A stretch of DNA of 64,000 nucleotides, from the NCBI GenBank assembly GCA_963971285.1, contig OZ020244.1:4216001-4280000 (forward strand). The letters run 5' to 3'. A program made the translations under genes and the position numbers. This document shows, one piece after another, positions 24,736 to 60,800 of the stretch (positions are counted from its first letter, which is position 1; the number at the start of each line of letters is the position of its first letter). This DNA comes from Astropecten irregularis. Lineage: Eukaryota > Echinodermata > Asteroidea > Paxillosida > Astropectinidae. The notes beneath the pieces were generated by a model that worked only from the letters and a program-made list of their open reading frames with translations, was not told where the DNA came from and made no database searches.

Positions 24736-25105
24736 TTAAAGGTAATACATGTATCATACTTTGGTTTTTGTCAAAGAAATACAGATTCGTGGGCAAAAAT
24801 ATCAAGGAAGATACAGTAAAACTAATCTGTGAAAATCTCAGTCCCATACGTTGCCCACTTTTTGCGAAAACAGCAAAAAACGGCCACAGTATTTCTGAAG
24901 TGTTTTCTCTTTTATTTTTGATCTTTTAAAAGATCAAAAAGATTTTCGGTTGTTGTTTTACTAATTTCTGGATAAATACACCATTTCAGGCGGAACAATT
25001 TTAACAAATGTTTCTACCAACACTATCTTCATATCCTGTAAGTTATACTTAAATCCGTGAACATATATGTTTTGGTCTCTTACCAAAGTATGATACTACC
25101 TTTAA
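24736..25105 (+). mobile_element. TTAA element, subfamily A (full length)
   Basis: TTAAAGGTAATACATGTATC to CCAAAGTATGATACTACCTT and TTAA. Carries the full central AAAAGATC palindrome. Confidence 0.8.
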
Positions 25106-30855: not shown

Positions 30856-31510
30856 ACCTTTGTCAACCTTTGCCAATGCTGACTGCATGTACCCGGATGA
30901 TCCAGAAAATTGACGACCGTTGCCATCAGGAGTTCAAGAAGTGCAAGACCCACCAGCTTGCCAAGTACCAAGAATTAGTCAATGGACAGACATGCCATCT
31001 CGCCAGCCAGCACCAGGCGGAGTCTTCTGTGGATACATCGAAGTGTGTACTCAACCTTTCTGCTAGGACCCTTTCCACCGCCGAGAAGTCACTGCTGGGG
31101 AAAGGTCTCAACTTCGCCGTCGCCCCCGACTGTGTCCAGGCTATGGAGATCGTGGCTAATGTTGAGATGGCGCTGAAGAGACTTGACCCAAAGGCAGCCG
31201 ACTTGGTCCGCAGAGAAGTCAATGGAGCAACGCGTGGCCCTGAGCTGAGGTCTCTTCGGGAGGACTGTTCCATCATGATCATTCCTGCCGACAAGGGCCG
31301 TGACAGCGTAGTCCTCGACGCAGACGCCTACCGCAGCAAGATGGGTGAGCTGATCACCTCGGGTCCCTACCGACCGGCTCTGCAGGAAGATCATAGCCCA
31401 ATTGCTCGCACTCAACAGGACCGGGGGATCTTGATGTGCAACCTACCGGAAACTCCGCCCCACCAGCAAGCAGCCTCCCAGAATATATGGTTTACCGAAG
31501 ATCCATAAAC
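30850..31510 (+). pseudogene. Penelope-like element, N-terminal region
   Basis: The plus-strand frame includes VLNLSARTLSTAEKSLLGKG, LNFAVAPDCVQAMEIVANVE and REDCSIMIIPADKGRDSVVL. The LSxAE-x3-LxKGLNF and PADKGR motifs are typical of the region before the RT core in Penelope-like elements. The frame is continuous for about 200 codons but enters from the inverted copy on its left and is disrupted near 31430-31510. Confidence 0.7.
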
Positions 31511-31535
31511 CAGGTACACCACTGAGGGCCATGCT

Positions 31536-32480
31536 GTGTGAGCTCTTTGGCATATGACCTGTCGAAGTACTTGGCGGGATCAGGACTGGCTCCGTTGACC
31601 GGCAACAGAGCGAACACAGTGCCCAATTCCACATCCTTCGTGGAATTCCTCCGCGGGCAATGGATCGGCCACCACGAGACGCTGATCTCCTTCAATGTTG
31701 AGTCACTGTTCACCAATGTCCCCATTGACGGCGTGTGTAGACTGGCTTTACGTCGCCTGGAGGAAGACCAGATTCTGTCTAGCCGGACTTCGCTGTCGTC
31801 TGCCAAGATCGTCACCTTGCTTGGAGTTTGTCTTGCATTCCACGTATTTTCTGGACATTCTATGAGCAGACAGATGGAGCAGCTATGGGCAGTCCAGTAC
31901 ATGCATGTACATGGAGATGTTTGAGGAGAAAGCCTTGCAGAGTTGCCCGCCCTGATTGCTGCCCCACAGTATGGAAGCGATACGTTAATACAACCTTCAT
32001 CATTGCACCGCGGGACCAGGCCAACCAGCTGCTCGCCCATCTGAACAGCATCCAGTCTAGCATCTGTTTCACTATCCAAAATGAGGAGAATGACAAGATC
32101 GCCTTCCTGGACACTTAATTTGGTCCACAGGGAACCTGATGGAAGCCTGACCAGCATCGTGTACCGCAAGCCTAAGCACACCGACCAATACTTGGCTTTC
32201 GACTCGCACCATCCAGAGTCCGTGAAGCGGGGAATGGCCAAGTGTCTCCATGACTGCACCTCACGCCTGGTGATGAGAAGTCTGCAGTGCAAGGCCACCG
32301 AGAGATGCGATGTGAATGCCTCCCTCACGGTCTATGGATACCCACCACCTTTCATCCGGCATGCTTCAAGGCCCAGGACCAGCACCGACACCAAGTGGAC
32401 GGAGGACAAATCCTTCACGGTTCTCCCCTTGACATATATGGCATCCGTACCATGTTCCAATCTTCCACCACCTTGAGGAA
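31536..32480 (+). pseudogene. Penelope-like reverse transcriptase, broken
   Basis: Consecutive frames carry RT landmarks: ISFNVESLFTNVPIDGV (31690-31740, RT motif A region), CLAFHVFSGHS..QMEQL (31830-31890), then RYVNTTFIIAP (31975-32010) where active elements have a YVDD box, LLAHLNSIQSSICFTIQ (32030-32080), and VYRKPKHTDQYLAFDSHHPE (32160-32220). The catalytic aspartates of YVDD are replaced (YVNT), and at least three frame changes break the frame. Inactive copy. Confidence 0.8.
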
Positions 32481-32696: not shown

Positions 32697-33020
32697 GGAC
32701 GATGTACGGTGTTTCAATAGTGAACAACATTGGTACACCAGGCACATCAAGGAGGCCCTCCACTTCCGCCTTCGAGAGAACAACATGAATCGGAGGACAG
32801 CGGCATCAACATCCCCGGATTTTAGCTAATTCCCACCATCCTGCACCACGACCACCGTGACGCAAAGGATGGAACCACCCCAGCTGACCGCAGAGTGAGC
32901 CGTACAACATCCGCTGAAGTGACCCGTCCAAAGTCTGCTGATCAAGGCTGAATGTGAATCCCGCCCAACAGGATATAACGGACACCACAGCATCCAGTTC
33001 TTCAGGTGCCTGATGAAAGC
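32697..33020 (+). pseudogene. Penelope-like C-terminus and 3' region
   Basis: The frame from 32697 reads SEQHWYTRHIKEALHFRLRE then NNMNRRTAASTSPDF, the usual end of Penelope-like proteins after the endonuclease, and stops at about 32826. Noncoding tail follows to CTGATGAAAGC at 33010-33020, where another element is inserted. The tail resumes at 33589. Confidence 0.65.
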
Positions 33021-33588
33021 CAGTGTTGTAGTACTCGTACGCGGTACTCGTACCTGAGTAGTACTCGAGTACCGTTTTCTGAGTACTCGTACTCGTCCTT
33101 TGGTACTTGTACTCGGGCTACAAAATACTCGGAACCCGACATCCAAAAATTGTACTCGAGCATCTACGTACTCGTACTCGATAAAAAGTACTCAATAAAA
33201 AAATCTGTTCAGTTGAAAGTTCGTGGATCTGAGCATTAATTCTAACAAGGAATCAAATCTAGCATATAGAAATTACATGCTTATGAATACAATAGTTGAG
33301 TCTGGAAAATAGACTACGCCGTGCTTGGCATTACGTTGTTGTAACGTACATGTATTACTGTTGCAACACATAGCCACGTGTGTTGACTACCATTTTTAGA
33401 TCACCTACAGCGCAACTTGTTTGGATTTTTTTCCGGAAGATAAATACTTATACTCGTACTTGTACTCGGGTGCACAACGTACTTGTACTCGAAAAACCAG
33501 TACTTGTACTTGACTGGCAAAGTACTCGACCTGTCAAAGTACTCGGCAGTACTCGGTACTCGGAAAAAAGTACTCGACCACAACACTG
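33021..33588. mobile_element. hAT-type miniature element with GTACTC repeats, second copy
   Basis: CAGTGTTGTAGTACTCG to CGACCACAACACTG. It is the reverse-oriented relative of 28724-29359 and shares the unique middle (ATCTGTTCAGTTGAAAGT, GATCTGAGCATTAATT-type). No 8-bp duplication is visible here. It interrupts the 3' tail of the Penelope-like element. Confidence 0.75.
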
Positions 33589-35888: not shown

Positions 35889-36474
35889 GGGGCCAATTTC
35901 ATAGATCTGCTTAAAGGTAGTATCACACTGTACTTTGGTTTTAGTCAAAGAAATGCAGATTCATGGGTAAAAATATCAAGACAGATAAAGTAACAGTCAT
36001 ATGTGAAAATTTCAGTCCCATACGGTGGCCACTTTTTTAGAAAACAGTGAAAAACGGCCACAGTATTTCTTAAGTCTTTTCTCTTTCATTTTTGGTCGTT
36101 CTTTTACTCTTTTCTGGATAAATACACCATTTCATGAGGAAAAATTTTAACAGCATGTTTCTAACACCACCACCTTCATACCATGTTTAGTTATATGTAC
36201 ATGTGTGTGTGTAAATTTCTGTGAAAATTTCTGTTTTGGCTTCTTACCAAAGTATATGATACTACCTTTAAGCACCAAAATTTGCTTGTAAACGCACCAA
36301 AAACATTGGTTAATAAAATCAGTCAGCCAAAACTCCTTGTGCGTGTTATGCTCAGCAAACAATGGCTGAATAAGGCAAGTCAAAAGCAGTAAACATCACA
36401 TGAAGGATAAAGGAATACTTTTCAAGCTTAAAAGCAAATTTTATAAAGCAGCTCTAGATCATTAGCCCCAGTTA
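35889..36474. mobile_element. GGGCCAATTTCATA-family host element with a TTAA insertion
   Basis: GGGGCCAATTTCATAGATCT at the left and AGCAGCTCTAGATCATTAGC-CCC at the right. Split at its CTGC-TTAA-GCACC site by the element at 35911-36271. Confidence 0.7.
35911..36271 (+). mobile_element. TTAA element, subfamily A (full length)
   Basis: TTAAAGGTAGTATCACACTG to AGTATATGATACTACCTT and TTAA, inside the host element. TTAA is present once on each side. Confidence 0.8.
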
Positions 36475-37171: not shown

Positions 37172-38407
37172 GGGTGCAGACCAGTAAATAATTTCCCATC
37201 TTGGCTCCCATGCAAAATGGCCAATTCAAACAAATTATTAAAAATACTCAAGTTTCTCAGGCGATCAAGCCATACCAAAAATGAAGCTGAAAACTTCACC
37301 TTTCGTTTTCTTTAAAATTTTCTATAATGGTAAACAATGACTTTTTGAGAAAAGACCATCTAAAGAAAAATAACCCTAAAACTGCCAAGTTGACTGGTGC
37401 CAGACTAAGAAAAATATAGCCTACATGTATCCCTGAACTACAGTACATTATAAATGACAAAAGTAGAGTGACTTAAGGGCCTGATTTCATCCAAACAACT
37501 CAAAGGTGAACGTCCAAACTCTGGTGACCGGGTTCCATCCATTTTCTTTACAAAACTTCCTATCTAAGGCTCATGTCACACTAGGCAATTTACAGGCAAC
37601 CAGTTTCAGGCAATCTCCAAGAGGAAATTGTCTTCCTCTTGAAATCGTGGTTTAACTTTATAGGGGATAATGAGAAACTGAAAGAAAAATGACTTTTGTT
37701 CTACCAAGACTTTCATTTTGCACGTGGTGTACTTGGTTGCCTCCGAGTTGCCTTGAAAAATTTCCTCGTGTGGCATGGCCCTAAGGCTCAGCAAATGCTT
37801 TTATAAAAAAACATTTTGATGGTACAAGTGTATACAAAATATGAAAGGGTCTCTGCAATGGGAATATTATGGCTTGAACATGTGCCAATAAAAAAATATG
37901 TAGGGATTGAGACTTTACCCACTTCCTCACACTGATTCAAAGTTAAAAACAGGTTTTTTGGTTTGTATGCTAATTAGCATTTCCATATTCATGAGCAAAA
38001 CTGTGATGTCATCTGAGGAACCGAGAGCAGTAACCCAATTGATTTGTGCACAAAAAGTTGGGGTTGTTTTATAGGTTTTCTGACAGACCTTTTCCTCCTC
38101 AATGGGTTTTATTTTGCCAAATATATGTTCCTTTCACTCAACTGGTGGCACGTAATTTTTTTACAAAACCATTTCTGTAGGTCAAGTTTGCCTCTTCATT
38201 TTCTATGTTTTTTCATTATACTGTTGGTTCCCTACCTGAGTATGCATGAATATCCCCCAAATAAGACTTGCCATTCATTACTTGTCAGTATATTCTCTGT
38301 ATGAAGGCAATAAAATAACCTCACTGAAAAAAGCACTGCAGGAACTCTTTAAGCTCCGCGGACTGATTTGGACAGGCTATTAGTAGGCCTATAGCTGGTC
38401 TGCACCC
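37172..38407 (-). mobile_element. Longer relative (1.24 kb) of the 467-bp array transposon
   Basis: GGGTGCAGACCAGTAAATAA at the left and a decayed GCTGGTCTGCACCC at the right match the termini of the 467-bp element in the 42-56 kb array. 37172-37560 and 38345-38407 align to that element in reverse. About 780 bp in the middle is absent from the array copies. No matching 4-bp flanks. No clear transposase; a small frame at 38044-38304 is hydrophobic and unconvincing. Confidence 0.65.
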
Positions 38408-40628: not shown

Positions 40629-40635
40629 ACCAGCT

Positions 40636-41105
40636 AGTTGCGATGATCGTAACCCTAGGTCTGACATGGGGACAGGGACCTTAGGGTTACGACAAAACTT
40701 GTTTAAAAAAATGGGTACGACCTTTTTGGCCAACTCCTGAAGTACGTTTCCACTTAGTTTTCCACTTTCCAAAATCCAAACACAAAATCTGACTACATGG
40801 ATCTGATCGGTACTTATCAATGAGTCATATAAAACCACTTTGAATATCGAAAGATCATTTTATGCAGAAAAAATGACCAAAAACTTACCGAAGGTGTCGA
40901 GATTCCCTCCGTTTGCCGTCAGTCGGCCATTTTGAATAGTGCGCAGTGCCATCTCGACCAAATTACGTCATGCGCAATGCCGTTTTGGCTGTTCCACCTT
41001 TCAAACTCAAACTCGCAGCCCTATGGAGGGCTCGTATCACGTGCGTTGTACAGTGCTATACACGGCATATCGCATACAGTGTGTGAGCGTGTCCGTCAAA
41101 TAAAT
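40636..41105 (-). promoter_or_regulatory. Inverted intact copy of the UXT promoter, 5' exon and intron start
   Basis: On the minus strand this reads, without interruption: promoter-like sequence (TGACGTAA at 40963-40970, CAAAATGGCCG at 40924-40934), the 5' exon end (CGGCAAACGGAGGGAATCTC ... CTTCG), donor GTAAGT at 40888, and about 250 bp of intron. The exon and intron part is nearly identical to 56896-57178 on the plus strand; the promoter part is nearly identical to 42238-42372. It is the uninterrupted version of the sequence split by the insertion at 42373-56887. Whether it is transcribed is unknown. Confidence 0.75.
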
Positions 41106-42179
41106 CACAGGTTATTGAATCAGTGACCAGACCCGTGCGCCGAAACTGCCGAATTAAGTTTATTTTCCGCCGCTCTTCTGATATGACAGGTGAAGAAAAA
41201 CGTATACGGCGTGATTTGTTTCCGACAACCAACACAGGCCGACATCGAACACATGCGAAATCTAAATAAAAATAAAAATATTCTGATCGACCGTCCTTCT
41301 AAAGTACCGTAAATCGTCGGCTGATCAGCTTATAAATCTTACTTGAATTTCAATTTCAGTATTCAATATTTTGTTCAATTGGCCAAGTAGAAACACTCTT
41401 TTCATAATTATACTGAATCTAAAATTTTTTTCGTGAAATCCTTCCGAAACCGACCGACGATCGCATTAAAAAATTAAGACGTACAAACATTGCCCACACC
41501 GCAGAGAAAGACAGCCTGGTATCCGCGTGCGTAATAGCCACAGTTTCAAAGCAAACGTGCACCAGCGAAAGTCTCAATCAGTACGTTACACACGTGCCGT
41601 GTGCTTGAAATGAAGTGTATTGCGCTCGGTCGGAAGGCCTTCCTTTTTAGATCGCGGCCGGCGTCGCTCCACCGTTACGGTCGGTGGCTCACGGCCGGCC
41701 GGCTCGGTACAGATTTCACCGTGGGCTTGAAATGTTGCGCTCGGTCGGCACCTTTTTGGATCGCGGCCGGGTTCGTTACCGTATACGGCTCGGTACAGAA
41801 CTACAGATTTGCAGTAAGAAATTGTGGTTTTTCCGCGATCCGCAGTGGAATATTCCGGTGATATTTTTACTAATATGTCCTCACTGTCCTACCGGGTATG
41901 ATCATTTTTTGTGTAATTGATGACCGGATATATTTTTCAGTCCAGCGTTAATTCCGACCACTGCGCGATCTGTGATGAGGTGGATGACCTTTTTATTCTG
42001 TTTGATCATGGATTGTGTCGGCACCGAGTTTGTGACCTGCTAACATATTTTGTCTGTTTGTGAGACCATTCATAAAGGAAATCATTTGATAATCTTAGCA
42101 ATTTCCTTTAGTTCATGATGAAAGATTTGAATTATCAGCGGCAGCTTGACATGGGCAAACAATGCGGACTTAAAAAAAA
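41106..42179. other. Spacer between the two inverted promoter copies; CpG-rich local duplication
   Basis: At 41608-41700 and 41728-41800 a block with TGCGCTCGGTCGG and GATCGCGGCCGG is repeated. No gene supported. Confidence 0.4.
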
Positions 42180-42372
42180 ACCTCCTCCATACTGTATACG
42201 ATATGCGTGTACACGGTATATCATGCACAGCGCACGTGTTATTCTGGGAACACCCTCCATAGGGCTGCGAGTTTGAGTTTGAAAGGTGGAACAGCCAAAA
42301 CGGCATTGCGCATGACGTAATTTGGTCGAGATGGCACTGCGCACTATTCAAAATGGCCGACTGACGGCAAAC
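42180..42372 (+). promoter_or_regulatory. UXT promoter-like region, cut off from its exon by the insertion
   Basis: Mirror copy of 40911-41105; about 120 bp are essentially identical. It contains TTGCGCATGACGTAAT (a CRE-type TGACGTAA at 42313-42320 next to an NRF1-like GCGCATG) and CAAAATGGCCGAC at 42349-42361 (YY1-like), a usual layout for a housekeeping TATA-less promoter. It ends in the 8-bp CGGCAAAC that is repeated at 56888-56895. Confidence 0.55.
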
Positions 42373-42384
42373 ACTGCGCGTTAG

Positions 42385-42851
42385 GGGTGCAGACCAGTAA
42401 ATAGGCCCAAATCGGTCCGCGGAGCTCATTAATTTTTTGTATACCCTCAAAATCTTTTCTCTTAAAGCGTCTGGTGAGCCCTACGTGGTAAGTCTTGTAG
42501 ACAAAATGGATGGAACCCGATCACCAGAGTTTGGACTTTCACCTCTGAGCCGTTTGGATGAAATCAGGCCCTAAATTCGCTCTATTTTTTCCCTGTAGTG
42601 GAGGGGTACTATTTTTGGTCTGGCACCGGTCAATTCGGCCATTTTAGGGGTATTTTTCTTTGAATGTACTTTACGCAAAAAGTCATCGGTTAACCTATAG
42701 AAAATTGAAAAGAAAATGAAAATTGAAGTTTTCACCTTTATTTTGCCGTATTGGTCGATTGCCTCAGAAACTTCTGAGTATTTTTAATATTTTTTTGAAA
42801 TTGGCCATTTTGCGTGGGAGCCTATGGGAATTTATTTACTGGTCTGCACCC
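42385..42851. mobile_element. 467-bp miniature transposon (first array copy)
   Basis: Perfect inverted ends of about 19 bp: GGGTGCAGACCAGTAAATA at the left and its inverse at the right. 4-bp flanks: TTAG on the outer sides of the array, and TAAA/TATA (one mismatch) at the spacer insertion site. No transposase. A longer relative is at 37172-38407. Confidence 0.85.
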
Positions 42852-43878
42852 TATATAGCGAAATCCAAGATGGCGGCATGCCGTTGCAATTTTGCCCTTT
42901 AAATGTCGCTAAAGTGAACTGTAGGCAGAAAATATTGACGGACACAACTTTTGCACTATCTGACATGTCGTTTTCCACTATTAGTTTCCTTTTAAATCCA
43001 TTAAAATTACCATAAATTAGATTTTTCCGAAATAAAGCATACGGCGGCCATGTTTGCCATAGTCAACGCGGTATCAACGCGCGTGCGTGTAAATGCTTGG
43101 GGATTCCCCTGCGTAAATAACTGTATTATCGCTTTGGAGTGGACTGAGTTTGAATTATTTCGGCAAAACAAATATGGGTTAGGATTTTCCTTTGTTTGTG
43201 CATGTTTTCAGCCTTTTTAGTGAAGTTCTTTATATTCATGCAAAGACAAAAGAGCATAGCAAAGAGGGTTACCCGTGACGAGGGTAGCAACTTTTGGCCA
43301 GTGATATTGTTGCGCGTTTGCTTTATCAAACACCTTTTCTTTGACCCCCAAGTCAGTCAACTATCCCAAAAACCGGGGAAAAAAATTATAAAAACATCAG
43401 TCTTGCAAACAAGATGCGAAGAGTCCTCAAAAATAGTCCAACCCTAGTTGCCCTAACCCTAGCGAACCTAACCCTAGCTAGAGTCCACTTGCTGGACCAA
43501 TTCTTGTTAGCCTTCTTGTTTCCCCCCCCCCCCCCCCCCCCCGAAATAAATTGTCGCATAGCCCTGGCCACCCGTCACAACCCCTGGCTGTGAACTCAAC
43601 AATCTTGAAGCATTCAACGATTGCTCCTTGCTTACTTTGAAGACTTGTAATATTAAAAAAGGAACTGCGATGCACATATCGATCCATGGATGCATTACAT
43701 AATGGATACCGTGCTAAAACTGCATAAACAAAATGGCCGCCCCTCCTCCAAGATTGGCCTGTATTTCGAAAAGGGTTCAATTTTGTTCAATTTTTTTTGC
43801 AGATTCATGGTCAGTGAACACTTCCCTTTGTCTTAAGGGTGGTTTTATAAGAAAATAAAATACTTTATGCACTATAAA
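42852..43878. repeat. 1,027-bp spacer unit (first array copy)
   Basis: Runs from TATATAGCGAAATCCAAGAT to TACTTTATGCACTATAAA. Contains GGCGGCATGCCG next to AAGATGGCGGC (YY1-like), a CpG patch (CAACGCGGTATCAACGCGCG), three CCCTAA-like strings (about 43440-43475), a poly-C run (about 43522-43542) and AAAATGGCCGCCCC. No protein gene or obvious inverted termini. Confidence 0.85.
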
Positions 43879-46800
43879 GGGTGCAGACCAGTAAATAGGC
43901 CCAAATCGGTCCGCGGAGCTCATTAATTTTTTGTATACCCTCAAAATCTTTTCTCTTAAAGCGTCTGGTGAGCCCTACGTGGTAAGTCTTGTAGACAAAA
44001 TGGATGGAACCCGATCACCAGAGTTTGGACTTTCACCTCTGAGCCGTTTGGATGAAATCAGGCCCTAAATTCGCTCTATTTTTTCCCTGTAGTGGAGGGG
44101 TACTATTTTTGGTCTGGCACCGGTCAATTCGGCCATTTTAGGGGTATTTTTCTTTGAATGTACTTTACGCAAAAAGTCATCGGTTAACCTATAGAAAATT
44201 GAAAAGAAAATGAAAATTGAAGTTTTCACCTTTATTTTGCCGTATTGGTCGATTGCCTCAGAAACTTCTGAGTATTTTTAATATTTTTTTGAAATTGGCC
44301 ATTTTGCGTGGGAGCCTATGGGAATTTATTTACTGGTCTGCACCCTATATAGCGAAATCCAAGATGGCGGCATGCCGTTGCAATTTTGCCCTTTAAATGT
44401 CGCTAAAGTGAACTGTAGGCAGAAAATATTGACGGACACAACTTTTGCACTATCTGACATGTCGTTTTCCACTATTAGTTTCCTTTTAAATCCATTAAAA
44501 TTACCATAAATTAGATTTTTCCGAAATAAAGCATACGGCGGCCATGTTTGCCATAGTCAACGCGGTATCAACGCGCGTGCGTGTAAATGCTTGGGGATTC
44601 CCCTGCGTAAATAACTGTATTATCGCTTTGGAGTGGACTGAGTTTGAATTATTTCGGCAAAACAAATATGGGTTAGGATTTTCCTTTGTTTGTGCATGTT
44701 TTCAGCCTTTTTAGTGAAGTTCTTTATATTCATGCAAAGACAAAAGAGCATAGCAAAGAGGGTTACCCGTGACGAGGGTAGCAACTTTTGGCCAGTGATA
44801 TTGTTGCGCGTTTGCTTTATCAAACACCTTTTCTTTGACCCCCAAGTCAGTCAACTATCCCAAAAACCGGGGAAAAAAATTATAAAAACATCAGTCTTGC
44901 AAACAAGATGCGAAGAGTCCTCAAAAATAGTCCAACCCTAGTTGCCCTAACCCTAGCGAACCTAACCCTAGCTAGAGTCCACTTGCTGGACCAATTCTTG
45001 TTAGCCTTCTTGTTTCCCCCCCCCCCCCCCCCCCCGAAATAAATTGTCGCATAGCCCTGGCCACCCGTCACAACCCCTGGCTGTGAACTCAACAATCTTG
45101 AAGCATTCAACGATTGCTCCTTGCTTACTTTGAAGACTTGTAATATTAAAAAAGGAACTGCGATGCACATATCGATCCATGGATGCATTACATAATGGAT
45201 ACCGTGCTAAAACTGCATAAACAAAATGGCCGCCCCTCCTCCAAGATTGGCCTGTATTTCGAAAAGGGTTCAATTTTGTTCAATTTTTTTTGCAGATTCA
45301 TGGTCAGTGAACACTTCCCTTTGTCTTAAGGGTGGTTTTATAAGAAAATAAAATACTTTATGCACTATAAAGGGTGCAGACCAGTAAATAGGCCCAAATC
45401 GGTCCGCGGAGCTCATTAATTTTTTGTATACCCTCAAAATCTTTTCTCTTAAAGCGTCTGGTGAGCCCTACGTGGTAAGTCTTGTAGACAAAATGGATGG
45501 AACCCGATCACCAGAGTTTGGACTTTCACCTCTGAGCCGTTTGGATGAAATCAGGCCCTAAATTCGCTCTATTTTTTCCCTGTAGTGGAGGGGTACTATT
45601 TTTGGTCTGGCACCGGTCAATTCGGCCATTTTAGGGGTATTTTTCTTTGAATGTACTTTACGCAAAAAGTCATCGGTTAACCTATAGAAAATTGAAAAGA
45701 AAATGAAAATTGAAGTTTTCACCTTTATTTTGCCGTATTGGTCGATTGCCTCAGAAACTTCTGAGTATTTTTAATATTTTTTTGAAATTGGCCATTTTGC
45801 GTGGGAGCCTATGGGAATTTATTTACTGGTCTGCACCCTATATAGCGAAATCCAAGATGGCGGCATGCCGTTGCAATTTTGCCCTTTAAATGTCGCTAAA
45901 GTGAACTGTAGGCAGAAAATATTGACGGACACAACTTTTGCACTATCTGACATGTCGTTTTCCACTATTAGTTTCCTTTTAAATCCATTAAAATTACCAT
46001 AAATTAGATTTTTCCGAAATAAAGCATACGGCGGCCATGTTTGCCATAGTCAACGCGGTATCAACGCGCGTGCGTGTAAATGCTTGGGGATTCCCCTGCG
46101 TAAATAACTGTATTATCGCTTTGGAGTGGACTGAGTTTGAATTATTTCGGCAAAACAAATATGGGTTAGGATTTTCCTTTGTTTGTGCATGTTTTCAGCC
46201 TTTTTAGTGAAGTTCTTTATATTCATGCAAAGACAAAAGAGCATAGCAAAGAGGGTTACCCGTGACGAGGGTAGCAACTTTTGGCCAGTGATATTGTTGC
46301 GCGTTTGCTTTATCAAACACCTTTTCTTTGACCCCCAAGTCAGTCAACTATCCCAAAAACCGGGGAAAAAAATTATAAAAACATCAGTCTTGCAAACAAG
46401 ATGCGAAGAGTCCTCAAAAATAGTCCAACCCTAGTTGCCCTAACCCTAGCGAACCTAACCCTAGCTAGAGTCCACTTGCTGGACCAATTCTTGTTAGCCT
46501 TCTTGTTTCCCCCCCCCCCCCCCCCCCCCGAAATAAATTGTCGCATAGCCCTGGCCACCCGTCACAACCCCTGGCTGTGAACTCAACAATCTTGAAGCAT
46601 TCAACGATTGCTCCTTGCTTACTTTGAAGACTTGTAATATTAAAAAAGGAACTGCGATGCACATATCGATCCATGGATGCATTACATAATGGATACCGTG
46701 CTAAAACTGCATAAACAAAATGGCCGCCCCTCCTCCAAGATTGGCCTGTATTTCGAAAAGGGTTCAATTTTGTTCAATTTTTTTTGCAGATTCATGGTCA

Positions 46801-49800
46801 GTGAACACTTCCCTTTGTCTTAAGGGTGGTTTTATAAGAAAATAAAATACTTTATGCACTATAAAGGGTGCAGACCAGTAAATAGGCCCAAATCGGTCCG
46901 CGGAGCTCATTAATTTTTTGTATACCCTCAAAATCTTTTCTCTTAAAGCGTCTGGTGAGCCCTACGTGGTAAGTCTTGTAGACAAAATGGATGGAACCCG
47001 ATCACCAGAGTTTGGACTTTCACCTCTGAGCCGTTTGGATGAAATCAGGCCCTAAATTCGCTCTATTTTTTCCCTGTAGTGGAGGGGTACTATTTTTGGT
47101 CTGGCACCGGTCAATTCGGCCATTTTAGGGGTATTTTTCTTTGAATGTACTTTACGCAAAAAGTCATCGGTTAACCTATAGAAAATTGAAAAGAAAATGA
47201 AAATTGAAGTTTTCACCTTTATTTTGCCGTATTGGTCGATTGCCTCAGAAACTTCTGAGTATTTTTAATATTTTTTTGAAATTGGCCATTTTGCGTGGGA
47301 GCCTATGGGAATTTATTTACTGGTCTGCACCCTATATAGCGAAATCCAAGATGGCGGCATGCCGTTGCAATTTTGCCCTTTAAATGTCGCTAAAGTGAAC
47401 TGTAGGCAGAAAATATTGACGGACACAACTTTTGCACTATCTGACATGTCGTTTTCCACTATTAGTTTCCTTTTAAATCCATTAAAATTACCATAAATTA
47501 GATTTTTCCGAAATAAAGCATACGGCGGCCATGTTTGCCATAGTCAACGCGGTATCAACGCGCGTGCGTGTAAATGCTTGGGGATTCCCCTGCGTAAATA
47601 ACTGTATTATCGCTTTGGAGTGGACTGAGTTTGAATTATTTCGGCAAAACAAATATGGGTTAGGATTTTCCTTTGTTTGTGCATGTTTTCAGCCTTTTTA
47701 GTGAAGTTCTTTATATTCATGCAAAGACAAAAGAGCATAGCAAAGAGGGTTACCCGTGACGAGGGTAGCAACTTTTGGCCAGTGATATTGTTGCGCGTTT
47801 GCTTTATCAAACACCTTTTCTTTGACCCCCAAGTCAGTCAACTATCCCAAAAACCGGGGAAAAAAATTATAAAAACATCAGTCTTGCAAACAAGATGCGA
47901 AGAGTCCTCAAAAATAGTCCAACCCTAGTTGCCCTAACCCTAGCGAACCTAACCCTAGCTAGAGTCCACTTGCTGGACCAATTCTTGTTAGCCTTCTTGT
48001 TTCCCCCCCCCCCCCCCCCCCCCGAAATAAATTGTCGCATAGCCCTGGCCACCCGTCACAACCCCTGGCTGTGAACTCAACAATCTTGAAGCATTCAACG
48101 ATTGCTCCTTGCTTACTTTGAAGACTTGTAATATTAAAAAAGGAACTGCGATGCACATATCGATCCATGGATGCATTACATAATGGATACCGTGCTAAAA
48201 CTGCATAAACAAAATGGCCGCCCCTCCTCCAAGATTGGCCTGTATTTCGAAAAGGGTTCAATTTTGTTCAATTTTTTTTGCAGATTCATGGTCAGTGAAC
48301 ACTTCCCTTTGTCTTAAGGGTGGTTTTATAAGAAAATAAAATACTTTATGCACTATAAAGGGTGCAGACCAGTAAATAGGCCCAAATCGGTCCGCGGAGC
48401 TCATTAATTTTTTGTATACCCTCAAAATCTTTTCTCTTAAAGCGTCTGGTGAGCCCTACGTGGTAAGTCTTGTAGACAAAATGGATGGAACCCGATCACC
48501 AGAGTTTGGACTTTCACCTCTGAGCCGTTTGGATGAAATCAGGCCCTAAATTCGCTCTATTTTTTCCCTGTAGTGGAGGGGTACTATTTTTGGTCTGGCA
48601 CCGGTCAATTCGGCCATTTTAGGGGTATTTTTCTTTGAATGTACTTTACGCAAAAAGTCATCGGTTAACCTATAGAAAATTGAAAAGAAAATGAAAATTG
48701 AAGTTTTCACCTTTATTTTGCCGTATTGGTCGATTGCCTCAGAAACTTCTGAGTATTTTTAATATTTTTTTGAAATTGGCCATTTTGCGTGGGAGCCTAT
48801 GGGAATTTATTTACTGGTCTGCACCCTATATAGCGAAATCCAAGATGGCGGCATGCCGTTGCAATTTTGCCCTTTAAATGTCGCTAAAGTGAACTGTAGG
48901 CAGAAAATATTGACGGACACAACTTTTGCACTATCTGACATGTCGTTTTCCACTATTAGTTTCCTTTTAAATCCATTAAAATTACCATAAATTAGATTTT
49001 TCCGAAATAAAGCATACGGCGGCCATGTTTGCCATAGTCAACGCGGTATCAACGCGCGTGCGTGTAAATGCTTGGGGATTCCCCTGCGTAAATAACTGTA
49101 TTATCGCTTTGGAGTGGACTGAGTTTGAATTATTTCGGCAAAACAAATATGGGTTAGGATTTTCCTTTGTTTGTGCATGTTTTCAGCCTTTTTAGTGAAG
49201 TTCTTTATATTCATGCAAAGACAAAAGAGCATAGCAAAGAGGGTTACCCGTGACGAGGGTAGCAACTTTTGGCCAGTGATATTGTTGCGCGTTTGCTTTA
49301 TCAAACACCTTTTCTTTGACCCCCAAGTCAGTCAACTATCCCAAAAACCGGGGAAAAAAATTATAAAAACATCAGTCTTGCAAACAAGATGCGAAGAGTC
49401 CTCAAAAATAGTCCAACCCTAGTTGCCCTAACCCTAGCGAACCTAACCCTAGCTAGAGTCCACTTGCTGGACCAATTCTTGTTAGCCTTCTTGTTTCCCC
49501 CCCCCCCCCCCCCCCCGAAATAAATTGTCGCATAGCCCTGGCCACCCGTCACAACCCCTGGCTGTGAACTCAACAATCTTGAAGCATTCAACGATTGCTC
49601 CTTGCTTACTTTGAAGACTTGTAATATTAAAAAAGGAACTGCGATGCACATATCGATCCATGGATGCATTACATAATGGATACCGTGCTAAAACTGCATA
49701 AACAAAATGGCCGCCCCTCCTCCAAGATTGGCCTGTATTTCGAAAAGGGTTCAATTTTGTTCAATTTTTTTTGCAGATTCATGGTCAGTGAACACTTCCC

Positions 49801-49851
49801 TTTGTCTTAAGGGTGGTTTTATAAGAAAATAAAATACTTTATGCACTATAA

Positions 49852-50875
49852 ATAGCGAAATCCAAGATGGCGGCATGCCGTTGCAATTTTGCCCTTTAAA
49901 TGTCGCTAAAGTGAACTGTAGGCAGAAAATATTGACGGACACAACTTTTGCACTATCTGACATGTCGTTTTCCACTATTAGTTTCCTTTTAAATCCATTA
50001 AAATTACCATAAATTAGATTTTTCCGAAATAAAGCATACGGCGGCCATGTTTGCCATAGTCAACGCGGTATCAACGCGCGTGCGTGTAAATGCTTGGGGA
50101 TTCCCCTGCGTAAATAACTGTATTATCGCTTTGGAGTGGACTGAGTTTGAATTATTTCGGCAAAACAAATATGGGTTAGGATTTTCCTTTGTTTGTGCAT
50201 GTTTTCAGCCTTTTTAGTGAAGTTCTTTATATTCATGCAAAGACAAAAGAGCATAGCAAAGAGGGTTACCCGTGACGAGGGTAGCAACTTTTGGCCAGTG
50301 ATATTGTTGCGCGTTTGCTTTATCAAACACCTTTTCTTTGACCCCCAAGTCAGTCAACTATCCCAAAAACCGGGGAAAAAAATTATAAAAACATCAGTCT
50401 TGCAAACAAGATGCGAAGAGTCCTCAAAAATAGTCCAACCCTAGTTGCCCTAACCCTAGCGAACCTAACCCTAGCTAGAGTCCACTTGCTGGACCAATTC
50501 TTGTTAGCCTTCTTGTTTCCCCCCCCCCCCCCCCCCCCCGAAATAAATTGTCGCATAGCCCTGGCCACCCGTCACAACCCCTGGCTGTGAACTCAACAAT
50601 CTTGAAGCATTCAACGATTGCTCCTTGCTTACTTTGAAGACTTGTAATATTAAAAAAGGAACTGCGATGCACATATCGATCCATGGATGCATTACATAAT
50701 GGATACCGTGCTAAAACTGCATAAACAAAATGGCCGCCCCTCCTCCAAGATTGGCCTGTATTTCGAAAAGGGTTCAATTTTGTTCAATTTTTTTTGCAGA
50801 TTCATGGTCAGTGAACACTTCCCTTTGTCTTAAGGGTGGTTTTATAAGAAAATAAAATACTTTATGCACTATAAA
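49852..50875. repeat. Spacer unit preceded by an empty junction
   Basis: Here ATGCACTATAAATAGCGAAA runs straight from one spacer to the next. Comparison with the filled junctions gives the exact insertion point of the 467-bp element. Confidence 0.9.
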
Positions 50876-53860
50876 GGGTGCAGACCAGTAAATAGGCCCA
50901 AATCGGTCCGCGGAGCTCATTAATTTTTTGTATACCCTCAAAATCTTTTCTCTTAAAGCGTCTGGTGAGCCCTACGTGGTAAGTCTTGTAGACAAAATGG
51001 ATGGAACCCGATCACCAGAGTTTGGACTTTCACCTCTGAGCCGTTTGGATGAAATCAGGCCCTAAATTCGCTCTATTTTTTCCCTGTAGTGGAGGGGTAC
51101 TATTTTTGGTCTGGCACCGGTCAATTCGGCCATTTTAGGGGTATTTTTCTTTGAATGTACTTTACGCAAAAAGTCATCGGTTAACCTATAGAAAATTGAA
51201 AAGAAAATGAAAATTGAAGTTTTCACCTTTATTTTGCCGTATTGGTCGATTGCCTCAGAAACTTCTGAGTATTTTTAATATTTTTTTGAAATTGGCCATT
51301 TTGCGTGGGAGCCTATGGGAATTTATTTACTGGTCTGCACCCTATATAGCGAAATCCAAGATGGCGGCATGCCGTTGCAATTTTGCCCTTTAAATGTCGC
51401 TAAAGTGAACTGTAGGCAGAAAATATTGACGGACACAACTTTTGCACTATCTGACATGTCGTTTTCCACTATTAGTTTCCTTTTAAATCCATTAAAATTA
51501 CCATAAATTAGATTTTTCCGAAATAAAGCATACGGCGGCCATGTTTGCCATAGTCAACGCGGTATCAACGCGCGTGCGTGTAAATGCTTGGGGATTCCCC
51601 TGCGTAAATAACTGTATTATCGCTTTGGAGTGGACTGAGTTTGAATTATTTCGGCAAAACAAATATGGGTTAGGATTTTCCTTTGTTTGTGCATGTTTTC
51701 AGCCTTTTTAGTGAAGTTCTTTATATTCATGCAAAGACAAAAGAGCATAGCAAAGAGGGTTACCCGTGACGAGGGTAGCAACTTTTGGCCAGTGATATTG
51801 TTGCGCGTTTGCTTTATCAAACACCTTTTCTTTGACCCCCAAGTCAGTCAACTATCCCAAAAACCGGGGAAAAAAATTATAAAAACATCAGTCTTGCAAA
51901 CAAGATGCGAAGAGTCCTCAAAAATAGTCCAACCCTAGTTGCCCTAACCCTAGCGAACCTAACCCTAGCTAGAGTCCACTTGCTGGACCAATTCTTGTTA
52001 GCCTTCTTGTTTCCCCCCCCCCCCCCCCCCCCGAAATAAATTGTCGCATAGCCCTGGCCACCCGTCACAACCCCTGGCTGTGAACTCAACAATCTTGAAG
52101 CATTCAACGATTGCTCCTTGCTTACTTTGAAGACTTGTAATATTAAAAAAGGAACTGCGATGCACATATCGATCCATGGATGCATTACATAATGGATACC
52201 GTGCTAAAACTGCATAAACAAAATGGCCGCCCCTCCTCCAAGATTGGCCTGTATTTCGAAAAGGGTTCAATTTTGTTCAATTTTTTTTGCAGATTCATGG
52301 TCAGTGAACACTTCCCTTTGTCTTAAGGGTGGTTTTATAAGAAAATAAAATACTTTATGCACTATAAAGGGTGCAGACCAGTAAATAGGCCCAAATCGGT
52401 CCGCGGAGCTCATTAATTTTTTGTATACCCTCAAAATCTTTTCTCTTAAAGCGTCTGGTGAGCCCTACGTGGTAAGTCTTGTAGACAAAATGGATGGAAC
52501 CCGATCACCAGAGTTTGGACTTTCACCTCTGAGCCGTTTGGATGAAATCAGGCCCTAAATTCGCTCTATTTTTTCCCTGTAGTGGAGGGGTACTATTTTT
52601 GGTCTGGCACCGGTCAATTCGGCCATTTTAGGGGTATTTTTCTTTGAATGTACTTTACGCAAAAAGTCATCGGTTAACCTATAGAAAATTGAAAAGAAAA
52701 TGAAAATTGAAGTTTTCACCTTTATTTTGCCGTATTGGTCGATTGCCTCAGAAACTTCTGAGTATTTTTAATATTTTTTTGAAATTGGCCATTTTGCGTG
52801 GGAGCCTATGGGAATTTATTTACTGGTCTGCACCCTATATAGCGAAATCCAAGATGGCGGCATGCCGTTGCAATTTTGCCCTTTAAATGTCGCTAAAGTG
52901 AACTGTAGGCAGAAAATATTGACGGACACAACTTTTGCACTATCTGACATGTCGTTTTCCACTATTAGTTTCCTTTTAAATCCATTAAAATTACCATAAA
53001 TTAGATTTTTCCGAAATAAAGCATACGGCGGCCATGTTTGCCATAGTCAACGCGGTATCAACGCGCGTGCGTGTAAATGCTTGGGGATTCCCCTGCGTAA
53101 ATAACTGTATTATCGCTTTGGAGTGGACTGAGTTTGAATTATTTCGGCAAAACAAATATGGGTTAGGATTTTCCTTTGTTTGTGCATGTTTTCAGCCTTT
53201 TTAGTGAAGTTCTTTATATTCATGCAAAGACAAAAGAGCATAGCAAAGAGGGTTACCCGTGACGAGGGTAGCAACTTTTGGCCAGTGATATTGTTGCGCG
53301 TTTGCTTTATCAAACACCTTTTCTTTGACCCCCAAGTCAGTCAACTATCCCAAAAACCGGGGAAAAAAATTATAAAAACATCAGTCTTGCAAACAAGATG
53401 CGAAGAGTCCTCAAAAATAGTCCAACCCTAGTTGCCCTAACCCTAGCGAACCTAACCCTAGCTAGAGTCCACTTGCTGGACCAATTCTTGTTAGCCTTCT
53501 TGTTTCCCCCCCCCCCCCCCCCCCGAAATAAATTGTCGCATAGCCCTGGCCACCCGTCACAACCCCTGGCTGTGAACTCAACAATCTTGAAGCATTCAAC
53601 GATTGCTCCTTGCTTACTTTGAAGACTTGTAATATTAAAAAAGGAACTGCGATGCACATATCGATCCATGGATGCATTACATAATGGATACCGTGCTAAA
53701 ACTGCATAAACAAAATGGCCGCCCCTCCTCCAAGATTGGCCTGTATTTCGAAAAGGGTTCAATTTTGTTCAATTTTTTTTGCAGATTCATGGTCAGTGAA
53801 CACTTCCCTTTGTCTTAAGGGTGGTTTTATAAGAAAATAAAATACTTTATGCACTATAAA

Positions 53861-55914
53861 TAGCGAAATCCAAGATGGCGGCATGCCGTTGCAATTTTGC
53901 CCTTTAAATGTCGCTAAAGTGAACTGTAGGCAGAAAATATTGACGGACACAACTTTTGCACTATCTGACATGTCGTTTTCCACTATTAGTTTCCTTTTAA
54001 ATCCATTAAAATTACCATAAATTAGATTTTTCCGAAATAAAGCATACGGCGGCCATGTTTGCCATAGTCAACGCGGTATCAACGCGCGTGCGTGTAAATG
54101 CTTGGGGATTCCCCTGCGTAAATAACTGTATTATCGCTTTGGAGTGGACTGAGTTTGAATTATTTCGGCAAAACAAATATGGGTTAGGATTTTCCTTTGT
54201 TTGTGCATGTTTTCAGCCTTTTTAGTGAAGTTCTTTATATTCATGCAAAGACAAAAGAGCATAGCAAAGAGGGTTACCCGTGACGAGGGTAGCAACTTTT
54301 GGCCAGTGATATTGTTGCGCGTTTGCTTTATCAAACACCTTTTCTTTGACCCCCAAGTCAGTCAACTATCCCAAAAACCGGGGAAAAAAATTATAAAAAC
54401 ATCAGTCTTGCAAACAAGATGCGAAGAGTCCTCAAAAATAGTCCAACCCTAGTTGCCCTAACCCTAGCGAACCTAACCCTAGCTAGAGTCCACTTGCTGG
54501 ACCAATTCTTGTTAGCCTTCTTGTTTCCCCCCCCCCCCCCCCCCCCCCCCCCGAAATAAATTGTCGCATAGCCCTGGCCACCCGTCACAACCCCTGGCTG
54601 TGAACTCAACAATCTTGAAGCATTCAACGATTGCTCCTTGCTTACTTTGAAGACTTGTAATATTAAAAAAGGAACTGCGATGCACATATCGATCCATGGA
54701 TGCATTACATAATGGATACCGTGCTAAAACTGCATAAACAAAATGGCCGCCCCTCCTCCAAGATTGGCCTGTATTTCGAAAAGGGTTCAATTTTGTTCAA
54801 TTTTTTTTGCAGATTCATGGTCAGTGAACACTTCCCTTTGTCTTAAGGGTGGTTTTATAAGAAAATAAAATACTTTATGCACTATAAATAGCGAAATCCA
54901 AGATGGCGGCATGCCGTTGCAATTTTGCCCTTTAAATGTCGCTAAAGTGAACTGTAGGCAGAAAATATTGACGGACACAACTTTTGCACTATCTGACATG
55001 TCGTTTTCCACTATTAGTTTCCTTTTAAATCCATTAAAATTACCATAAATTAGATTTTTCCGAAATAAAGCATACGGCGGCCATGTTTGCCATAGTCAAC
55101 GCGGTATCAACGCGCGTGCGTGTAAATGCTTGGGGATTCCCCTGCGTAAATAACTGTATTATCGCTTTGGAGTGGACTGAGTTTGAATTATTTCGGCAAA
55201 ACAAATATGGGTTAGGATTTTCCTTTGTTTGTGCATGTTTTCAGCCTTTTTAGTGAAGTTCTTTATATTCATGCAAAGACAAAAGAGCATAGCAAAGAGG
55301 GTTACCCGTGACGAGGGTAGCAACTTTTGGCCAGTGATATTGTTGCGCGTTTGCTTTATCAAACACCTTTTCTTTGACCCCCAAGTCAGTCAACTATCCC
55401 AAAAACCGGGGAAAAAAATTATAAAAACATCAGTCTTGCAAACAAGATGCGAAGAGTCCTCAAAAATAGTCCAACCCTAGTTGCCCTAACCCTAGCGAAC
55501 CTAACCCTAGCTAGAGTCCACTTGCTGGACCAATTCTTGTTAGCCTTCTTGTTTCCCCCCCCCCCCCCCCCCCCCCCCGAAATAAATTGTCGCATAGCCC
55601 TGGCCACCCGTCACAACCCCTGGCTGTGAACTCAACAATCTTGAAGCATTCAACGATTGCTCCTTGCTTACTTTGAAGACTTGTAATATTAAAAAAGGAA
55701 CTGCGATGCACATATCGATCCATGGATGCATTACATAATGGATACCGTGCTAAAACTGCATAAACAAAATGGCCGCCCCTCCTCCAAGATTGGCCTGTAT
55801 TTCGAAAAGGGTTCAATTTTGTTCAATTTTTTTTGCAGATTCATGGTCAGTGAACACTTCCCTTTGTCTTAAGGGTGGTTTTATAAGAAAATAAAATACT
55901 TTATGCACTATAAA
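53861..55914. repeat. Two consecutive spacer units without the 467-bp element
   Basis: Junctions at about 53861 and 54888 are both empty. The poly-C runs in these two units are the longest of the array (26 and 24). Confidence 0.9.
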
Positions 55915-56895
55915 GGGTGCAGACCAGTAAATAGGCCCAAATCGGTCCGCGGAGCTCATTAATTTTTTGTATACCCTCAAAATCTTTTCTCTTAAAGCGT
56001 CTGGTGAGCCCTACGTGGTAAGTCTTGTAGACAAAATGGATGGAACCCGATCACCAGAGTTTGGACTTTCACCTCTGAGCCGTTTGGATGAAATCAGGCC
56101 CTAAATTCGCTCTATTTTTTCCCTGTAGTGGAGGGGTACTATTTTTGGTCTGGCACCGGTCAATTCGGCCATTTTAGGGGTATTTTTCTTTGAATGTACT
56201 TTACGCAAAAAGTCATCGGTTAACCTATAGAAAATTGAAAAGAAAATGAAAATTGAAGTTTTCACCTTTATTTTGCCGTATTGGTCGATTGCCTCAGAAA
56301 CTTCTGAGTATTTTTAATATTTTTTTGAAATTGGCCATTTTGCGTGGGAGCCTATGGGAATTTATTTACTGGTCTGCACCCTTAGTGGTAGCCTTGTTGC
56401 CATCTTGTGATTGGTCCGTGTGCAGCGATGCGTAGTCGTGCAGACAATGTACATACACATAGGCAGTGGCTAGTGTGTAGTCGTTACCGTACAGCCTCGA
56501 TTCATGTACAAGTACAGTGCATCCGCATTGTACGGGGTACGTGTGGCTGACGTGAGACTTGAAATTTTAATCTGAATTCCGAAGTTTTTTATACTCAGAA
56601 TTTCAGCTTTGCTTTGCACGGAAGTATAAGAAAACATTCCTTTAAATTTTGAGCTTATTTCTCGGTGTTTTTAACTTCAGATTTTGTTTTGTTTGGCCAT
56701 TGGCCACTCACATCCCCGACGTACGTGCGTGCGGTATTTTATCACACACTACGTACGTACGTCGTGCGTGCGGTACTTGTATTTATCCCACGAGTCGCGC
56801 AGTGCATAGCATGCAGTGCAGGCAGTGTGTAGCACACACGGATGGACCAATCACAAGATGGCAACAAGGCTACCACTAACGTGCAGTCGGCAAAC

Positions 56896-56917
56896 GGAGG
56901 GAATCTCGACACCTTCG
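56896..56917 (+). other. UXT: 3' end of the UXT 5' noncoding exon, with donor
   Basis: GGAGGGAATCTCGACACCTT-CG is followed by donor GTAAGT at 56918. It matches the minus-strand copy at 40889-40910 and can splice to the acceptor CTTTGCTGCAG ending at 57731. An upstream ATG in the ancestral exon would give only a short frame that stops before the UXT start, so the exon is noncoding for UXT. Where transcription starts now is unknown, since the old promoter is 14.5 kb upstream. Confidence 0.5.
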
Positions 56918-57178
56918 GTAAGTTTTTGGTCATTTTTTCTGCAGAAAATGATCTTTTGATATTCGAAGTGGTTTTATATGACTCATTGATAAGTACCAAT
57001 CAGATCCATGTAGTCAGATTTTGTGTTTGGATTTTGGAAAGTGGAAAACTAAGTGGAAACGTACTTCAGGAGTTGGCCAAAAAGGTCGTACCCATTTTTT
57101 TAAACAAGTTTTGTCGTAACCCTAAGGTCCCTGTCCCCATGTCAGACCTAGGGTTACGATCATCGCAACTAGGTACCA

Positions 57179-57859: not shown

Positions 57860-60800
57860 GTGAGTTGACCACTATTCCTCTGAAAGTCAGGGGCGCAGGG
57901 GTGTTTTGGCAGATGTGACCAGGAAAGCGTTTCTGACGTCACTCTTATTTACTCCGTTGACCCCAGCTAGCTCGACAAAATCAGGTTTTGTAACCACGTG
58001 CGATGTCCACAATGTGCACGATTTATGGTACATAGTTTTTCCTTCAACATGTTCAATGTGATTGTCGCTTACGGAATGCTCTTTACGATGTTATTTTTAA
58101 GACCAAGCATTTAGATCAAGTACGGGGTTTTGTTTAGATCAAGTATGTGAAAAGCGTGTGTTTCTACTTGGCAAAATGGACAAAATAATTGACTGAAATT
58201 CAAGTACAGTATTCTACGGTTTACACTTATGGGTTGTTGAGCATAGGCCAAATGTTTGTCCCTTTTTTCCCTTTCAGTTTCGGTTAACAGTTAGTGAAAA
58301 TTTGTAACCGGATAATTAAATCCGGGTCGGTTTATCTAAAACTGGATAAAAATCCCACCACTACTCTTATAAACCCTAACCCTCTGCAATGACTGCATAA
58401 GGCACAAATTTCTGGAATATTTGTAACTGACAAAATAGTGTTGAAATCTTCTTCTATTTTAAAGGTAGTATCATACTTTGGTAAGAAACCAAAACAGAAA
58501 TGTTCACAGATTTACATATAACTTACAGGGTATAAAGATGGTGGTGGTAGAAACCTACTGTTAAAATGATTCCGCCTGAAATGGTGTATTTATCCAGAAT
58601 TTAGTAAAACAACAACCGAAAATCTTTGTGATCTTTTAAAAGATCAAAAATAAAAGAGAAATGACTTAAGAAATACTGTGGCCGTTTTTCACGATTTTCT
58701 AAAAAAGAGGGCACCGTATGGAACTGACATTTTCACAGATGACTGTGACTGTATCTTCCTTGATATTTTTGCCCATGAATCTGTACTCCTTTGACAAAAA
58801 CCAAAGTATGATACTACCTTTAATTACACATATGCAAATAATAATAAGAATAACGATTTCAGCTGTTTTCTGTTTCATTTACAGGAAAGTGTTGCAAAAC
58901 AGAGACAAGATTTATGAGCAAGTGGCACATTATCTACAATTAAAAACCACCATTGAAAAACTGCAGGTAATTGATTTTAAAGGTACAGAACAGGATTGGT
59001 AACATACCCCAACAGAAATGTTCACAGATTTACCTATAACTTTCAGGGTATGAAGATGGTGCTGGTAGAAACATTCTGTTCAAATATTTCTGCCTGAAAT
59101 GCATATTTATCCAGAAATTAGTCTTACAAAGACCGAAAATTCAAAACAGTTATGATGCGGGGGTAAGATCAAAACCATTCTTTATGTTTTATAAGAAAAA
59201 TTGAGTCAAGTTCGCTATTTTCCCGTGACTCAGACGTCTGATTTAGCTCAAATTTTCACAGGGTTATCATTTCTTGTACATGTATACTACATGCTGGATC
59301 AGACACAGTGTGAGTGCTGTTCTGTGACCTTTACCATTCTGCGTGGGTTTAATGTAGAAAACAGCACAAAAAATTACATTTGAATCACAGATGTTGGTCT
59401 TTTTCTGCATTGTTTATAGGATGGCAGTTTACCAAAGCAAGATATGAAGACCAAAGTGGATTTGGGCTGCAACTTTTATGTGCAAGCAAACGTGTAAGTA
59501 CACACATACCGAAATGTGTATCCTTGTGGAGACATGGCTTTGTTCTCAAAATGAACACTCTCTGAAGAGCAGAATTGAAATCACTCCCATTTGAACCAGA
59601 ATTACTGTCCTGCATTGAAATTTCTAGCGAACATCCCTTATATAAAATACTTTGCAACACATACCTTGGAAATTCCTCCTTTTTGAGTTAATTCCAAATA
59701 TCAGTTTCATGTAAACCTTGTGGAGACCTATGCACCTTTAGAATTTCCCTGTGGAGACATATTCAATCTATTGTGCAGCCTTGATGAAACAGGATTTCCA
59801 ACCAAATTTTCATGTGATGTTTACTTTACCACTTGGTTTGCCAGTAACAAGGCCATGTATTTTTGTTTCCTCTGTGAAATACTTTGACTAGAAAGTGAGT
59901 CATTGAAAACTGAACAAAGAAAACCAAGTGGAACAGGATTCGAACCTGTGACCCCCGAAATATGGTATCAGTGCTCTACCAACTGAGCTATCCAGCCCTA
60001 TGTTGGAGGTGTCCTAAATAGGGCTCCGCGCTCGTGATGTCACATTCAGAAGTTCGGACAAACAAGTCGCACGTGTCCACATTAACTTACACGTAAACGT
60101 TGTGATGTTTGTCCAAACATCCGGGTAACTATCGCTGTCCATAACAAAGGGCGTATTAAAAAAATAGCTCGAGCGCGGAGCCCTATTGTCAATTCAGTGA
60201 TCAAATTTCTTCTCTTTCACTACAAAGTGAAATGTTGAAAAGCGAACAAGAAATTTGGATGGAGCGGGATTCGAACCTGTGTCAATTCAATTGACCATAA
60301 TTATTTCTGCTGTGTTTTACAGACCTGATGCAAGCAGGATTTACGTCCTCGTCGGTTTTGGGTTTTTCGTGGAATTTACGTTGCCAGAAGCATTGGAATT
60401 TATTGAAAAGAAGGTCAATCATCTAACAAGGTTAGTAATCTTTAAAAAGTAAACAAAGAAAAATTGATTGGAGCAGGATTTGAACCTGCAACCCACGGAT
60501 TACAGTACCGGTTGCTCTACCAAGAGTGGGAGCACTGGTACTGTATGCCAGTGGTCCAATATTCGAATCCCGCTCCAGTCAATTAATGCCCCTTCTAAAA
60601 TTCTCGATGGCTTTTTAAAAGTTTCTTCAAAGTGCCTTTTGCCATGGAAACAAGAAATATGATAAAATCCAGCCAGAAAATCGTAAGAAAATGATTTTTG
60701 TTGACAATGTGGCACATCCCCGACTAAATCTCATTTTGCATAGCTGTGTTCGTTGTACTGACATTTTTTTTTCCCATTTTCATTCTTTAGTTTGAGCGAT

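Follow-up and report, generated by a model that had tools for sequence, protein, structure and literature searches.

What kind of DNA begins and ends with the same short element, repeats that element at irregular intervals together with a second sequence of about 1 kb, and carries the same four bases directly outside both of its ends? The question is raised by a 14-kb block in the sea star Astropecten irregularis (assembly GCA_963971285.1, contig OZ020244.1, forward strand, positions 4,216,001 to 4,280,000; this stretch of 64,000 nucleotides is called the window below, and its own numbering is used). The block is very probably a multimer, inserted at one locus, of a KolobokP-type DNA transposon that is nonautonomous and organized as (LTDR-INT)n-LTDR, in which a long terminal direct repeat (LTDR) of 467 bp alternates with an internal region (INT) of ~1.02 kb. 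The first-pass annotation of this DNA, a model's reading of the sequence, had described a miniature transposon plus a spacer; the two-part repeat was correctly recognized, whereas its division into separate units is better replaced by one transposon, whose LTDR is the 467-bp unit and whose INT is the spacer.

Architecture and copy identity of the array

A scripted scan of the window placed eight copies of the 467-bp element and ten copies of the spacer at 42385-56381 (Table 1), reproducing exactly the interval, with an element at both ends, that had been outlined previously. All copies run in the order E S E S E S E S E S S E S E S S S E (E, element; S, spacer). The eight element copies are directly repeated and identical, and the ten spacer copies differ solely in the length of one poly-C tract of 19-26 bases (21, 20, 21, 21, 20, 21, 20, 19, 26 and 24 from INT 1 to INT 10). 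With these tracts left out, the 18 copies show no substitution over 13,756 compared sites, in keeping with the near-identity of units reported in the first-pass annotation; this limits substitutions since the common ancestor to at most ~2 x 10^-4 per site (95% upper bound, star tree), unless assembly or gene conversion removed differences between copies. The multimer is apparently very young, its copy number being given as in the assembly. Additionally, the two longest poly-C tracts adjoin each other in INT 9 and INT 10, which would weakly fit a local duplication of this pair, with two copies to go by and homopolymer errors possible.

The alternation is irregular, as the element is absent from three of the nine boundaries between successive spacers (49852/49853, 53860/53861 and 54888/54889). 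Where an element faces a spacer, its right flank is TATA (7/7) and its left flank TAAA (7/7). Relative to these TAAA-E-TATA boundaries, all three element-less boundaries also lack the 4 bp TATA, and all three read ...CACTATAAA followed directly by TAGCG....

Every 467-bp unit is bounded by a perfect 19-bp terminal inverted repeat (TIR), GGGTGCAGACCAGTAAATA, with ends GG...CC, that is, RR...YY. Allowing up to three mismatches, this 19-mer has 17 matches in the window, against a mean of 0.00 over 100 shuffles. Sixteen of them are the termini of the eight units; the remaining one terminates a diverged lone relative, whose alignment with the element (77.5% agreement over 405 aligned positions) is confined to element positions 91-467. 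Elsewhere in the window, element and spacer have only weak matches of 31, 20 and 18 bp, the 18-bp one being the only match of the spacer outside the array. Comparison of element with spacer, jointly with inverted repeats inside the spacer, returned short matches only (best E 0.40 and 1.8), and the TIR had no match in viral contigs, examined for eukaryotic contamination in a collection that may omit records of this same genome. As DNA, the 467-bp unit folds slightly better than its shuffled versions (z -2.43; equalled by 1 of 100), an effect that probably comes from the TIRs.

Table 1. Positions of the repeat units, their outer duplications and the two related sites within the window
Feature	Position	Strand	Remarks
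Lone LTDR relative	37172-37573	-	diverged, apparently truncated; one end carries the exact 19-bp TIR
Left target site duplication TTAG	42381-42384	.	directly before first LTDR; single copy in empty-site paralogue
LTDR 1 (467 bp)	42385-42851	+	19-bp TIRs at 42385-42403 and 42833-42851
INT 1	42852-43878	+	TATA tip at 42852-42855, TAAA tip at end
LTDR 2	43879-44345	+	identical to LTDR 1
INT 2	44346-45371	+
LTDR 3	45372-45838	+
INT 3	45839-46865	+
LTDR 4	46866-47332	+
INT 4	47333-48359	+
LTDR 5	48360-48826	+
INT 5	48827-49852	+
INT 6	49853-50875	+	abuts INT 5, no LTDR between; TATA tip lost; junction CACTATAAA then TAGCG
LTDR 6	50876-51342	+
INT 7	51343-52368	+
LTDR 7	52369-52835	+
INT 8	52836-53860	+
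INT 9	53861-54888	+	abuts INT 8; TATA tip lost
INT 10	54889-55914	+	abuts INT 9; TATA tip lost
LTDR 8 (last)	55915-56381	+
Right target site duplication TTAG	56382-56385	.
Empty insertion site paralogue	56844-56887	-	inverted, single TTAG; 43/44 bp match to flanks joined with one TTAG

Target site duplication and empty site

TTAG stands directly outside both ends of the block, as previously reported, and an inverted copy of the two flanks, joined with one TTAG, lies ~0.5 kb from the array and agrees with them at 43 of 44 bp. Most of this match lies to the right of TTAG; to its left, seven of eight bases agree, and another 8-bp block agrees at a 13-bp offset. The perfect TTAG repeat and the empty-site paralogue together support a clean insertion, with TTAG as a true target site duplication (TSD), and argue against the spacer as resident DNA amplified in place. 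The earlier proposal of a transposon insertion at TTAG is thereby strengthened, while the finding that it had named as fatal to its view, a spacer that is ordinary flanking DNA of this locus, is contradicted by the same paralogue.

Nested inverted duplications surround the array (40634-42372 and 56382-57172) and take in the DNA that precedes the UXT coding exons; the inverted pairs are 40634-40918 with 56888-57172 (99%) and 40911-41030 with 42253-42372 (100%), and the empty-site paralogue at 56844-56887 belongs to the same set.

Probable assignment to KolobokP

The layout is striking but has already been described in other marine animals. KolobokP, as presented by Kojima & Bao (2022; PMC9587614), was covered by this paper alone in the open-licence literature searched, and consists of an INT between two LTDRs of ~450 or ~660 bp that have their own TIRs (11-18 bp in oyster families) and 5'-RR...YY-3' ends. 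KolobokP is reported to lack strong target specificity. Solo LTDRs are reported, mainly with TSDs of 3-4 or 4-5 bp, as are (LTDR-INT)n-LTDR multimers, usually flanked by TSDs, in which INT-INT joints without an LTDR "almost always" show a loss of 3-4 bp at one INT tip, on either side; one-sided footprints of 1-5 bp are also recorded (PMC9587614). In KolobokP-1_MeMe, INT has TATA at both its start and its end, and one TATA is kept at INT-INT joints (PMC9587614). Oyster nonautonomous families measure 1,738-3,261 bp, and the lineage is reported from echinoderms of three classes, the sea star Patiria miniata among them (PMC9587614).

The Astropecten block agrees with this description in the length of its LTDR (467 bp, against the published ~450-bp class), in the TIRs and RR...YY ends of each LTDR, in its outer 4-bp TSD with a one-copy empty-site paralogue, in a multimer that starts and ends with an LTDR, in the loss of 4 bp at all three INT-INT joints, and in a monomer length (467+1027+467 = 1,961 bp) that falls within the range of the oyster nonautonomous families (PMC9587614). 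The statement in the first-pass annotation that no described system has this exact layout therefore does not hold, since KolobokP multimers share it, including the element-less INT-INT junctions (PMC9587614). Where KolobokP LTDRs are reported as solo copies, the window holds the one lone, truncated relative at 37172-37573, and its 10 INT and 8 LTDR without substitutions compare with a published text that names multimers at least as long as LTDR-(INT)4-LTDR (PMC9587614). Classical Kolobok and piggyBac elements, by comparison, produce a TTAA-specific 4-bp TSD, whereas the TSD here is TTAG.

Several observations weigh against this assignment. Membership in KolobokP is probable on the strength of architecture and termini, and no transposase or His-Me nuclease was recognized in LTDR-INT-LTDR, whose longest open stretch has 102 codons. 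The TIR measures 19 bp against at most 18 bp in the published families, and all three INT-INT joints lost the same tip, where losses at either tip are published (PMC9587614). INT copies were seen at one locus only in the 64-kb window. Furthermore, the empty-site match extends only a short way to the left, its left-flank alignment score being equalled by 25 of 2148 random window pieces, and taken alone this side amounts to modest evidence.

Six open stretches of at least 75 codons gave nothing above cut-off in Pfam, the single match being to YwiC (E 0.064, below its cut-off). As no coding part was recognized, the family is filed only as nonautonomous. An array of noncoding RNA genes was also considered and rejected, Rfam (E up to 1) having returned nothing for 42300-44400; the two tRNA genes of the window, Thr(GGT) at 24331-24411 and Met(CAT) at 59925-59997, both on the minus strand, lie outside the array.

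Proposed mechanism and multimerization

A Kolobok-type transposase, supplied in trans by an autonomous relative, would recognize the outer TIRs, and an LTDR-INT-LTDR monomer, a multimer or a solo LTDR would insert at TTAG, duplicating 4 bp. Copy number would then grow through unequal crossover between LTDRs or through LTDR-INT circles entering an LTDR, while INT-INT joints would form where an LTDR leaves together with four flanking bases, the LTDRs that are kept being flanked by TAAA and TATA. Unequal crossover between terminal repeats and circle integration are the two models published for KolobokP multimers (PMC9587614). As neither route alters the outer TSD, this locus fits both equally; the earlier suggestion for this array, that a circle integrated into one solo element, is one of the published models but is not singled out over unequal crossover.

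The same footprint at all three INT-INT joints suggests a single excision that was later copied within the array, gap closure that always proceeds alike, or a joint that represents the older state. The last option can be extended to a different history, in which INT-INT joints are ancestral, a Kolobok miniature inverted-repeat transposable element (MITE) entered a circular or tandem INT, the resulting LTDR-INT circles multiplied, and one such circle recently entered a resident LTDR at TTAG. The TAAA and TATA tips around the inner LTDRs resemble an old 4-bp target duplication, as in KolobokP-1_MeMe (PMC9587614); we consider this history unlikely. If true, the composite-like plan of KolobokP could have arisen by insertion of a MITE into an INT molecule.

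Alternative explanations

Tied to ancestral joints is the proposal that an independent satellite is involved: a 1.02-kb tandem repeat or circle would have existed beforehand, one of its units would have received a MITE, with TAAA as TSD and a later change of one TSD copy to TATA, and the segment from MITE to MITE would then either have moved to TTAG by macrotransposition, through its outermost TIRs, or have recombined homologously into a lone MITE. The element-less junction does hold exactly one 4-bp copy, like an empty target and alike at three places; the TAAA/TATA flanks resemble a 4-bp duplication in which one base differs; at 37172-37573 the MITE-like unit has a relative that stands alone; and macrotransposition is documented as the en-bloc movement of two neighbouring elements (PMC1562414). 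However, separate satellite, insertion and capture steps are required, whereas published KolobokP biology yields the same product directly, and in KolobokP the losses at either INT tip and the 1-5-bp one-sided footprints point to excision (PMC9587614). With, moreover, nothing longer than 18 bp of the spacer elsewhere in the window, we regard this origin as improbable. A further candidate is ordinary local tandem duplication, in which one insertion was followed by amplification of neighbouring host DNA through unequal crossing-over. Unequal exchange may well account for growth in copy number, but local duplication is contradicted by the 43/44-bp match of the empty paralogue, by which the spacer is not resident host DNA here, and duplicated flanking DNA would not finish with an element and matching TTAG on both sides; as an account of the whole block it deserves almost no credence.

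The hallmarks of long terminal repeat (LTR) retrotransposons and of terminal-repeat retrotransposons in miniature (TRIMs) are TG...CA ends, a primer-binding site after the left LTR and a polypurine tract before the right LTR. A tandem array of such elements, with the 467-bp unit as LTR and the spacer as internal region, would share the overall layout and the short TSD, and rice tandems with TSDs (PMC11899658) as well as tandem arrays formed by Cassandra (PMC7215508) are documented. The present ends, however, are not TG...CA, a perfect 19-bp TIR far exceeds LTR termini, and LTR biology does not predict INT-INT joints from which just one 4-bp tip is missing. No TGG occurs in the first 15 internal bases and only three purines stand directly before the right repeat, leaving neither a primer-binding site nor a polypurine tract in the expected place; the candidate was rejected as extremely improbable. 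An assembly or polishing artefact, by which true copies differ or copy number is wrong, draws support from the extremity of zero substitutions over ~14 kb and from the two other tandem arrays of the window, which are perfect as well. The irregular order, the poly-C tracts of 19-26 bases and the two TSD-bounded ends are nevertheless unlike a simple collapse, and the architecture is independent of copy number, a TSD-bounded layout not being creatable by an assembly effect; this explanation is very unlikely.

Neighbouring genes and repeats

Exons of a UXT gene lie downstream of the array on the plus strand, with the start codon at 57780 and, as judged from reading frames, further exons near 58.8, 59.5, 60.4 and 60.8 kb. 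For a 127-residue partial UXT protein joined from these exons, 232 of 241 candidates reach E 0.001, and the functional names among the best 120 of these 232 are UXT, the closest among the same 120 being those of Acanthaster planci (79%), Patiria miniata (76%) and Asterias amurensis (73%). This piece matches Pfam Prefoldin (5e-17), with two other families below their cut-offs and weak matches to prefoldin in PDB; the first 54-residue piece had no match in PDB or Pfam.

Two abutting perfect tandem arrays occupy 5043-7950 (30-bp unit x 67.6 and 7-bp unit x 126.1, both 100%), adjoined by diverged 30-bp arrays at 8026-9651. A dispersed repeat family of ~150-300 bp is present in many copies on both strands, ~73-92% alike in the 25 longest of 129 inverted pairs, with copies at 58521-58823, 11483-11785, 24751-25006, 23362-23570, 35931-36100 and elsewhere. 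Opposite-strand open stretches of 280 and 279 codons at 30666-32331, a region that also contains a 152-bp inverted repeat (91%), are reminiscent of a Penelope-like reverse transcriptase; Pfam gave no match. Stretches rich in GAGTAC-type short repeats are found at 28734-29350, 32829-33191 and 33506-33545.

Comparison with known systems

The block probably represents another sea-star family in a lineage of transposons whose composite-like plan is unusual. It illustrates that TSD-bounded arrays, which are easily taken for a MITE plus a satellite, can be one transposon, and as a long multimer free of substitutions it would be suited to testing unequal crossover against circles in KolobokP multimerization.

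Beyond KolobokP, the arrangement resembles bacterial composite transposons and IS26-type pseudo-composite units, in which direct end modules with their own TIRs flank an internal part and circles may re-enter a resident copy (PMC9587614); the present block, in contrast, is eukaryotic and its end modules have no transposase gene. The block shares with tandem LTR retrotransposons (PMC11899658) and with Cassandra/TRIM arrays (PMC7215508) the alternation of shared terminal repeats with an internal region, and with the tandems of rice also the outer TSDs (PMC11899658), while differing in its ends, TIRs, primer-binding site, polypurine tract and INT-INT joints with a 4-bp loss. Finally, like MITE-linked satellites such as Xenopus Xstir and miDNA4, it links a MITE-like unit to a tandem array, but their tandem unit lies inside the MITE, whereas here it lies between MITE-like copies (PMC9659126, PMC12628747).

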